Part shown: positions 17,218 to 19,425 of the stretch, piece by piece
How the letters are laid out: each line of letters starts with the position of its first letter
Numbering within the stretch: position 1 is the first letter of the stretch
From: Longimicrobiales bacterium
GTDB taxonomy: Bacteria; Gemmatimonadota; Gemmatimonadetes; Longimicrobiales; Gaopeijiaceae
Direction of reading: 5' to 3'
Length of the DNA: 64,000 nucleotides
Assembly: GCA_951813395.1 (NCBI GenBank)
Contig: OX638356.1
Coordinates: forward strand, 2,802,501 to 2,866,500
Made by a program: the position numbers and the translations under genes
Notes under the pieces: generated by a model
Databases searched by the model: none
Told to the model about the DNA's origin: nothing
The model's input: the letters and a program-made list of their open reading frames with translations, nothing else

Positions 17218-17891
17218 CGGCTGCTATTCGGAACCGGTAATCAGCCCTCGGAGGCGACGCGGGGTTCGCGCTCCGCCTGGTCGGTGACCCTCGGGCCGCC
17301 AAGGCTGGCACCCGGCCCGCCGCGGGGGGGCGGAGTGCTGGCACCGGGCGTGCTTGGGTGGGCCGAAGCCCTGACAGTGGCCAGAGCCTCCCGGCGTACT
17401 CGGCGGCCATGGACGACCCTGACGTAACGTTAGGGTTAGCGGTAAGCGAGGGCTGCGGGCCACGCTGGCTGTCGAGCTACTGACCAACGCGCCGGTGGAC
17501 GTGGGCGCGGTGCCACTGTGGAGCAGGTGGCTGCGATCCCGGTGGGCCAGGTAGCCGAGCGTGGCTGGGCCGAGAGCCCCCGTGTCCCATTCGAGCATGC
17601 GGGTGTCCCGCGTTTTGCCGCGGAAACGTGGTGAGCGCTCCAGCGCGCGGCCGATCCCCCACATTGCCCGCCGGCCCGCTCTTCAGCCAACTCCTGTCCC
17701 AAAACGCGGGAACGCAGTCCCATCCAGCTATGGACAGGTTCTGAAAGGGCGGTCGCGGCGAGGTCCCGGACGTCTGCCACAATGGCCGCCAGGGGCCGCA
17801 GGAAGCACCGGGCGGGGCGATCGGCGATGTGGGACCCATTCGAGCCGTCGCGAGGCGACTTTTCGCGTCCTGGGCCTTGGAGGATCAGAAC
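17218..17891. other. Gene-free stretch with mosaic repeats
   Basis: No credible gene was found in these ~670 bases. The stretch contains near-duplicate GCTGGCACC(C/G)GGC units about 35 bp apart (17305-17350), a lower-GC patch with GTTAGGGTTAG, the left arm of a 45-bp inverted repeat (17584-17628), and a shorter related piece (17700-17723). An 11-base CCCATTCGAGC shared with that arm recurs near 17,835. It ends at the intact ribosome site of the HNH relic. It looks like debris of a repeat-rich or mobile segment. Confidence 0.6.
17584..17628 (+). repeat. Left arm of 45-bp inverted repeat flanking the HNH relic
   Basis: The reverse complement of this arm matches bases 18328-18372 at 37 of 45 positions without gaps. 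The 16 inner bases are identical, including the palindrome-like CCGCGG. Mismatches fall in three short blocks. A partial third copy, sharing CAAAACGCGGGA, lies at 17700-17723. Confidence 0.7.
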
Positions 17892-18470
17892 ATGACCATC
17901 GCCCAGCTTGGCGAGCGCATCGTCGAACTCGCCTGGAGCACCGGACGCACGATCGGCACCTGCCGCGAGAACGTGCGGGTCGCCGCCGAGCTCGAACGGA
18001 TGGTGCGGGGATGGCGGCACCTGTCGCGCAACGGCGAGTTGACGGCCGAGGAGGTACGGCACCAGCGGCGGGCGTTCTCGGTCGTGCGGGTGAGCGCGGA
18101 GACGTCGCGGCGCATGGCGTGCGATGCGTCGCTGGTGCAAATGCTGCACCGGGAGGGGAAGGCAGTCAGCGTGGGGCGGAAGACGCGGACGATCCCGCCG
18201 CACATCCGCCGGGCGCTCGAAGAGCGGGACCGGGGCTGCCGGTATCCGGGCTGCCGGGGCCGGTTCACGGAGGCGCACGAGAGGCCATCGAAGCAGGCGC
18301 CGGCGGGTGACGGCGCGCCCGCGGCCGCGTTTCCGCGGCAAAAGCAGGGACACGAGCATGCTGCGATGGGACGGGCTGAACCCGGGGAGCCGTCCTTTAG
18401 TATCCGGCGTCCTTGTCGACCAGGTTGCGCAAGGGCTCGCCGCGTACGAACCGGCCGATGTTGTCCGTGA
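17892..18470 (+). pseudogene. Eroded DUF222/HNH (13E12-type) endonuclease gene
   Basis: A 192-codon frame made of separated pieces of a DUF222-HNH protein: the N-terminal LGERIVELAW, a mid-region RMVRGWRHLSRN with ELTAEEVRH and RRAFSVV, then RVSAETSRRMACDASLV and the pre-HNH segment RKTRTIPPHIRRALEERDRGCRYPGC. Intact relatives have about 400-500 residues with these blocks far apart, so several internal stretches are gone while the frame survived. The sequence ends at GRFTEAHE, just before the second catalytic histidine and the rest of the HNH motif, and then runs into the right inverted repeat. The GGAGGA ribosome site is intact. No nuclease activity is expected. Confidence 0.75.
18328..18372 (-). 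repeat. Right arm of 45-bp inverted repeat flanking the HNH relic
   Basis: Partner of the arm at 17584-17628, in opposite orientation (37/45 identical). It begins where recognisable HNH coding sequence stops and lies between the relic and the end of the convergent dehydrogenase gene. The two arms enclose ~700 bp containing the DUF222/HNH relic. Confidence 0.7.
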
Positions 18471-19425
18471 TCAGGTCGGTTTCACGATCCCAGAAACGGC
18501 GGGTCGTCGCGGACACGTGAGGAGTCATCACCACCTTCGGGTGCGCATAGAACGGATGACCGCCGGGCAGCGGCTCCTCCCGGAATACGTCGAGTCCTGC
18601 CCCACGCAAGTGACCCGAATTCAGCGCCTCCAGCAAAGCATCCTCGTCGAGCAGCCTTCCGCGGGCGACATTGATCAGGACGGCTCCGGGCTTCATCGCG
18701 AACAGCCTCTCGGGGGTCATCATTCCCCGCGTATCCCCGGTCTCGGGAACCGTCAGCACCAGGTAGTCCGACCATGACAGGACGTGGTTCAGCCCGTCCT
18801 CTCCGGCAACCACCTCCACCCCGTCCCCACCGCCCGCCGCGCGCCGCTTGCGCACCGCCCGCACCCGGCAACCCAGCGCGGCGGCCTTGCGGGCCACCGC
18901 CCTGCCGATCCCGCCGTACCCGACGATCCCCACCGTGGCTCCGCCGACCTCCGTAACCGGCGCATCGGCCGCCCAGTAGGACCGTGCGCTCCAGCGCCCT
19001 TCACGCTGGGCCCGCACCGCCAGGTCGAGGCCTCGCGCAAAGTGGAAGATCATCGCGAGCACCGTCTCGGACATCGGCTCGGCGTGGATGCCGGCCGAGT
19101 TGGTGAAGAGTACTTCGCTGGAAAGCATCTCCGGACCCAGCGAGGAACCCACGCCGGCGGCGCCCGAATGCACCCACTCGATCCCGGGGCCGGCCTCGAG
19201 CACCTCCGCGGGGATCCCGTATCCCATGTACACGCGCGCGCCCCTCACTGCCTCCAGCAGCTCAGGCGGCGCGCGCTGTATCCCGTCACCCGAACCGTCG
19301 GCCGGCGTTTCCATGAACTTCACCGTCCAGTCGGCCGGCACCGCGGCGGCAATGCGCTCTCGCGCACGATCCGGAAGCGCCCAGATCGGCCGCCGGTCCA
19401 TGAGATCGATGACGAGCGTGGCCAA
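18397..19425 (-). CDS. D-2-hydroxyacid dehydrogenase (NAD-binding)
   Basis: A 342-residue protein with a flavodoxin-like substrate domain split around a Rossmann domain. GIVGYGGIGRAVARKAAALG is the dinucleotide loop. Catalytic residues sit in NVARGRLLDE (Arg), GLDVFREEP (Glu) and MTPHVSA (His). The family reduces 2-keto acids or oxidises D-2-hydroxyacids; the substrate is not evident. A TTG start at 19425 places the family N-terminus correctly; the next ATG (MDRRPIW) would remove the first strand. It is the last gene of the minus-strand cluster, 32 bp after asnS, and converges on the repeat-rich relic region. Confidence 0.85.
   Translation of the reverse strand: MATLVIDLMDRRPIWALPDRARERIAAAVPADWTVKFMETPADGSGDGIQRAPPELLEAVRGARVYMGYGIPAEVLEAGPGIEWVHSGAAGVGSSLGPEMLSSEVLFTNSAGIHAEPMSETVLAMIFHFARGLDLAVRAQREGRWSARSYWAADAPVTEVGGATVGIVGYGGIGRAVARKAAALGCRVRAVRKRRAAGGGDGVEVVAGEDGLNHVLSWSDYLVLTVPETGDTRGMMTPERLFAMKPGAVLINVARGRLLDEDALLEALNSGHLRGAGLDVFREEPLPGGHPFYAHPKVVMTPHVSATTRRFWDRETDLITDNIGRFVRGEPLRNLVDKDAGY

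Follow-up and report, generated by a model that had tools for sequence, protein, structure and literature searches.

Inverted arms in a Longimicrobiales genome bound what is probably a dead member of a multi-copy, REP13E12-like family of DUF222-HNH elements

What kind of unit lies between two inverted arms in the window, i.e., in the whole 64,000-nt stretch of contig OX638356.1 analysed here (positions 2,802,501 to 2,866,500; Longimicrobiales bacterium, genome G000), and is it mobile? An earlier note, made from the sequence alone, had seen an eroded HNH gene between the arms and taken the whole for an undescribed, possibly non-autonomous mobile or retron-like unit. Its account of the arms was reproduced exactly: 17584-17628 and 18328-18372 match in inverse orientation at 37/45 positions, with the 16 innermost bases (TTTTGCCGCGGAAACG) forming the identical stretch and the 8 mismatches falling into three clusters. 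Extended to 17584-17631 and 18325-18372 (48 nt, 81% complementary, 693 nt spacing), the arms are the top inverted pair within 3 kb. Both are intact. The left arm (+ strand) is a terminal repeat, 80-98% identical to the other arms of the genome, and corresponds to the left end of intact 1.76-kb copies; the right arm (- strand) is its inverted copy and aligns at 92% to reference 2008-2057, the corresponding arm in intact copies.

The whole unit (17584-18372, + strand; G000 2820084-2820872) is 789 bp long vs. approximately 1.76 kb for an intact copy. Aligned to the E3145 reference it falls into seven blocks, with reference positions 593-687, 741-839, 905-1033, 1140-1439, 1634-1928 and 1961-2007 absent. 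From the left arm to the gene runs a conserved non-coding leader (17632-17891, + strand), which is alignable to intact copies and to other species; a second, degenerate double-GTCCC motif (GTCCCAAAACGCGGGAACGCAGTCCC) lies in it at about 17697-17722. The leader is followed by the relic of a DUF222-HNH gene (17892-18277, + strand) ending within GCRYPGC...FTEAH, in which in-frame deletions of 105, 141 and 303 bp precede a 298-bp deletion that takes out the HNH core; the HH pair has lost its second His, and the Asn and the final His of HNH are missing as well. The three frame-keeping deletions (window 17928-18086) all have short overlaps at their junctions. Since the enclosed ORF matches the end of DUF222 only (PF02720 profile positions 259-306, 23.3 bits, just below the 24.4 cut-off), and at least six internal deletions are present, an eroded HNH gene was the right description; the copy is also non-autonomous, since little of DUF222 remains and the HNH active site is gone. 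We give a probability of roughly 55% to the reading of 17584-18372 as a dead remnant, shortened by internal deletions, of a REP13E12-type DUF222-HNH element present in many copies, taken jointly with the mechanism proposed below.

In the left flank a palindrome (ACCCTGACGTAACGTTAGGGT, 17416-17436) resembles a MerR operator. It is dispersed genome-wide and probably lies outside the element, occurring near W2820, E84 and E3700 (left flanks) and in variant form at E2667 and E3526. The other flank, also outside the element, holds a D-2-hydroxyacid dehydrogenase gene (18397-19425, - strand). Beyond the 3′ end of this gene, DUF222 genes of different subfamilies are found in G005, G006, G007, G011, G021, G022 and G000, and the contigs of several other relatives stop there.

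With one window arm as the query, 30 matches at E ≤ 0.0015 were obtained in the 4.09-Mb genome, so the arms are not unique and their pairing is not due to chance; the core arm pattern occurred 15 + 16 times and the reversed pattern 0 times. DUF222 matches, obtained in a separate family search, numbered 16. All of the full-length DUF222-HNH genes of the best-scoring group (8/8) have a left arm on one side and an inverted right arm on the other, and intact DUF222/HNH genes are flanked by arms in other species of the genus as well. The earlier note's refuting condition, arms found once only and with no relation to DUF222 genes, is thus contradicted. The arms are the ends of a repeated unit, which supports the mobility that had been claimed. 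In an intact unit a single gene, whose product joins DUF222 to an HNH nuclease and is 421 aa long in most copies, stands between the left arm and the inverted right one; the unit measures ~1.76 kb from arm to arm as aligned, some units being larger through an inserted IS110. Simple copies contain DUF222-HNH alone, with no known transposase found inside them, and the IS110 transposases in some copies are later insertions. We count ~11 copies of the arm-bearing subfamily and 3 of a second subfamily in the genome; intact copies score 90-93 bits for PF02720, and several copies of the family are dead. Arms that are not part of a full unit mostly stand next to fragments of one, and some are solo remnants. 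Left arms are frequently tandem, spaced 120-210 bp, and in some copies shared sequence continues beyond the outer arm.

Of 98 genomes searched, 41 had DUF222 genes, between 1 and 15 in each, frequently at contig ends, as expected because repeats break assemblies. The named relatives are Gemmatimonadota MAGs, and multi-copy relatives occur also among Gammaproteobacteria MAGs; judging by how the MAGs are named and by background knowledge, these relatives and the Gemmatimonadota host genus are apparently sponge-associated. Most members of this genus carry the arm pattern (up to 39 per genome), which is almost absent outside it, and the reversed control gave 0 in the genus. The same arms stand beside DUF222 genes in G016, G018 and G021, with arms and DUF222 genes patchy within the genus and copy number and position differing strongly between species. 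Sister species contain arm arrays of 3-4 with periods of 59-61 bp, as well as deletion derivatives down to ~150 bp. Near-perfect single-arm tandem arrays are seen at L346 (G018 C40, 61 bp x3) and L347 (G006 C15, 59 bp x4). Gammaproteobacterial and other relatives have left motifs only and no inverted right arm. Inverted arms as a general trait of DUF222 elements were rejected, the right arm being limited to one subfamily and genus.

Gammaproteobacterial and other copies begin with GTCCCGAATTCACATCTGCGTGTCCCATTCTGCCATTGACGG, often in tandem. Common to this sequence and to the arm (GTCCCATTCGAGCATGCGGGTGTCCC...) are two GTCCC boxes exactly 16 bases apart, i.e., with a 21-bp period. In 48.6 kb of sequence upstream of related DUF222 genes GTCCC-N16-GTCCC occurred 33 times, vs. 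once in a 242-kb control; the 33 sites are not independent events, because some species contribute more than one locus and some loci are paralogous. The motif was present at 25 of the 55 loci, and when all gaps from 8 to 30 between GTCCC boxes were counted, a peak appeared at gap 16 only. Upstream of DUF222 genes, the end motif is conserved across phyla (Gemmatimonadota, Gammaproteobacteria).

The protein encoded by the element is under strong purifying selection, with a dN/dS of 0.14 over the 28 pairs of eight intact copies and zero indels in 414 codons. One relative from this subfamily scores above the cut-off both for DUF222 (PF02720, 83 bits) and for the HNH domain that follows it (PF01844, 27 bits), and the HNH His, His, Asn, His and Cys residues are invariant in 34 proteins. 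The HNH domain is related to the modification-dependent McrA enzymes and has weak sequence similarity to IscB (E 2.5e-4). An AlphaFold2 model (mean pLDDT 71) was confident in its N-terminal part, which is helical and has block means of 83-96, and moderate in its HNH part; in Foldseek the model matched the DNA-binding domains of ParB, Noc and Spo0J with a probability of 0.9-0.98 and E 0.5-1, and McrA/IscB-type HNH domains were matched too. Pfam HTH_ParB was found weakly in a relative (E 0.066), and a sequence search of solved structures gave none that was significant. In the model the N-terminal part of DUF222 weakly resembles the ParB/Noc DNA-binding fold, which we regard as a lead.

Among intact copies 2304 of the 4656 informative site pairs were incompatible (PHI permutation p < 0.0002); the variable sites are strongly mosaic, and the copies exchange sequence among themselves. 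Two insertion sites are common to G000 and G016 (E3787 = C46 and E3458 = C10), with flanks matching on both sides; the flank alignment suggests that these loci are orthologous, the alternative being independent insertion into a hotspot. The G016 copies at these sites group 100/100 apart from the G000 copies. As shared-site copies cluster by genome and not by site, the copies undergo concerted evolution, and gene conversion among them is supported both by this grouping and by the PHI test.

We propose that the element is REP13E12-like, that its HNH protein binds the arms of the element and probably cuts them, and that recombination spreads and homogenises it. The ParB/Noc-like helical part of DUF222 would bind the arms, whose two GTCCC boxes are separated by two turns of the helix, and nicking or cutting by the HNH domain would take place there. 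Host recombination would then repair the break from another copy and so spread and homogenise the element in the manner of a homing endonuclease gene and without cut-and-paste transposition. Internal deletions would gradually erode the copies, the window copy being an example. Binding, cutting and recombination as the route of spread are inferred. Several points weigh against this explanation. The ParB-like matches have E 0.5-1 and the model confidence is moderate, and ordinary RecA recombination without self-cleavage can also convert repeats. Homing fits sites that bear an arm or homology, whereas first entry into a new intergenic site is hard to explain, and the inverted right arm is limited to the subfamily of this genus. 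A wider proposal, by which DUF222 proteins would be ParB/Noc-like site-specific DNA-binding nucleases recognising the 21-bp-period double GTCCC in their own ends, and the elements would form a class of their own across phyla, made up of mobile repeats that target themselves and spread by nuclease-induced recombination, is put forward as tentative.

The main rival to recombination is a true transposon, in which the DUF222-HNH protein or an unlinked transposase would act on the terminal inverted repeats by cut-and-paste or copy-out, the deleted copies being MITE-like. The elements are indeed multi-copy and have terminal inverted repeats with a common terminus, both ends reading GTCCC inwards (GTCCC...GGGAC), and intact copies coexist with deleted derivatives down to ~150 bp. 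The E2794 locus also holds no element sequence in G003, G019, G016 and G021, the intergenic DNA of these four relatives being too diverged for an exact junction; a clean junction was not found for the E1659 flanks, nor an empty site for the window locus, where relatives differ past the dehydrogenase gene. Against a transposon, the element ends are ragged and the 11 copies compared show no target-site duplications, for which the earlier note had proposed looking: direct repeats were not in excess at these copies (mean shared run 4.5 vs. 4.2 by chance). Absent duplications, ragged ends and tandem arms are what is expected from recombination and not from a DDE transposase. The terminal inverted repeats are, moreover, a feature of this genus's subfamily and absent in related lineages, and the right arm is missing in equally multi-copy relatives. 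There is also no sign of mobilisation in trans in G018, since the two deleted copies compared there differ in their junctions. We therefore consider a transposon rather unlikely.

It appears improbable that the genes form a resident, non-mobile nuclease family, regulatory or of a McrA-like restriction/defence type, with the arms as its own operators and copies arising by duplication. The motif upstream of the gene, the purifying selection on the protein and the relationship of the HNH domain to McrA enzymes would all suit such a family. Against it weigh the arms at both ends in the genus, sometimes left as solo remnants, the strong variation in copy number and position between species, and the several dead copies; a PADLOC search for defence systems gave no usable match. 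A retron-like or RNA-guided unit of the IscB/HEARO type, suggested by the weak HNH similarity to IscB and by a long, conserved, non-coding leader, is very improbable, and the retron-like part of the earlier claim was not borne out. No reverse transcriptase was seen among the longest ORFs inside copies, Rfam gave no match, the upstream DNA folded no better than its shuffles (z = -0.34), and no covariation was detected in the leader (covariation term -0.13). The element protein of a relative had no match to a RuvC domain. An IscB/OMEGA identity was rejected, the similarity being limited to the HNH domain, with neither RuvC nor structured RNA. The leader is conserved, though not as RNA.

DUF222-HNH (13E12) genes are abundant in Actinobacteria, and to our knowledge they have no known function. 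Neither the protein family nor its occurrence as a repeat is new: REP13E12 of M. tuberculosis forms gene-conversion hotspots (PMC13061034), and like the present family it consists of multi-copy, dispersed, gene-conversion-hot DUF222 + HNH genes with no defined function (PMC13061034, PMC10589994). The available text of these two papers mentions neither terminal inverted arms nor GTCCC-N16-GTCCC. The features that the present family shares with REP13E12 are DUF222 followed by HNH, a multi-copy dispersed repeat, and gene conversion among copies. A prophage attachment site (phiRv) is a further trait of REP13E12. The claim that the unit is undescribed holds for the arms and the end motif in the open-access literature searched, and fails for the DUF222/HNH "13E12" protein, whose presence in repeated copies is known from Mycobacterium. 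In that literature, with few subscription papers covered, we found no bounded unit, arms, cross-phylum end motif or ParB-like lead. Free-standing HNH homing endonuclease genes resemble the element as selfish nuclease genes copied by recombination, with HNH catalytic residues conserved under selection, no transposase and no target-site duplication; they normally occupy one allelic site, whereas the elements here are dispersed, with a putative recognition motif inside their own ends at which cleavage would occur. REP/BIME sequences with RAYT (TnpA-REP) likewise place repeated ends, often in tandem or inverted arrays, around a selected nuclease gene. RAYTs are, however, HUH tyrosine transposases of the IS200/IS605 type, in contrast to the DUF222-HNH protein here, and the arms differ from simple REP hairpins. 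The single gene between inverted repeats, the multiple copies and the deletion derivatives also recall insertion sequences with terminal inverted repeats, but the element has no DDE transposase and no target-site duplications, its ends are ragged, and its copies evolve in concert. The conserved end motif makes DUF222 function directly testable as binding and cleavage of a nameable DNA, and it suggests why DUF222-HNH loci undergo rapid gene conversion.

The arms are also used by an IS110-like element (~1.54 kb, 414-aa transposase), a family name that we take from reading the transposase sequence. All five intact copies in the genome (G000 C1:572781, 1256465, 2797489, 3526790 and 3787968) and one relic (3702583) lie inside arms at one position (TTTGCCGCGGAA^), and the arms are therefore a dedicated landing site for it. 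Its 5′ non-coding part holds the target 7-mer CGCGGAA, as a bridge RNA might. In the second DUF222-HNH family, with copies 95-97% identical (L091, L092 and L093; G000 C1:1054649, 490951 and 3111261), the flanks, where they are preserved, carry imperfect palindromes (CTTAACCAGAATGTTTAGTAT / CTGAACATTAATGTTAAGTAT). Palindromes of this type are also dispersed and solo, with 11 matches in G000 and 23 in G016. In the right flank of E2667 (query 794-853) lies a ~60-bp sequence, CCCTGCCGTTACGGCAGAGTCAAGGG..., with many repeats in every searched genome of the genus.
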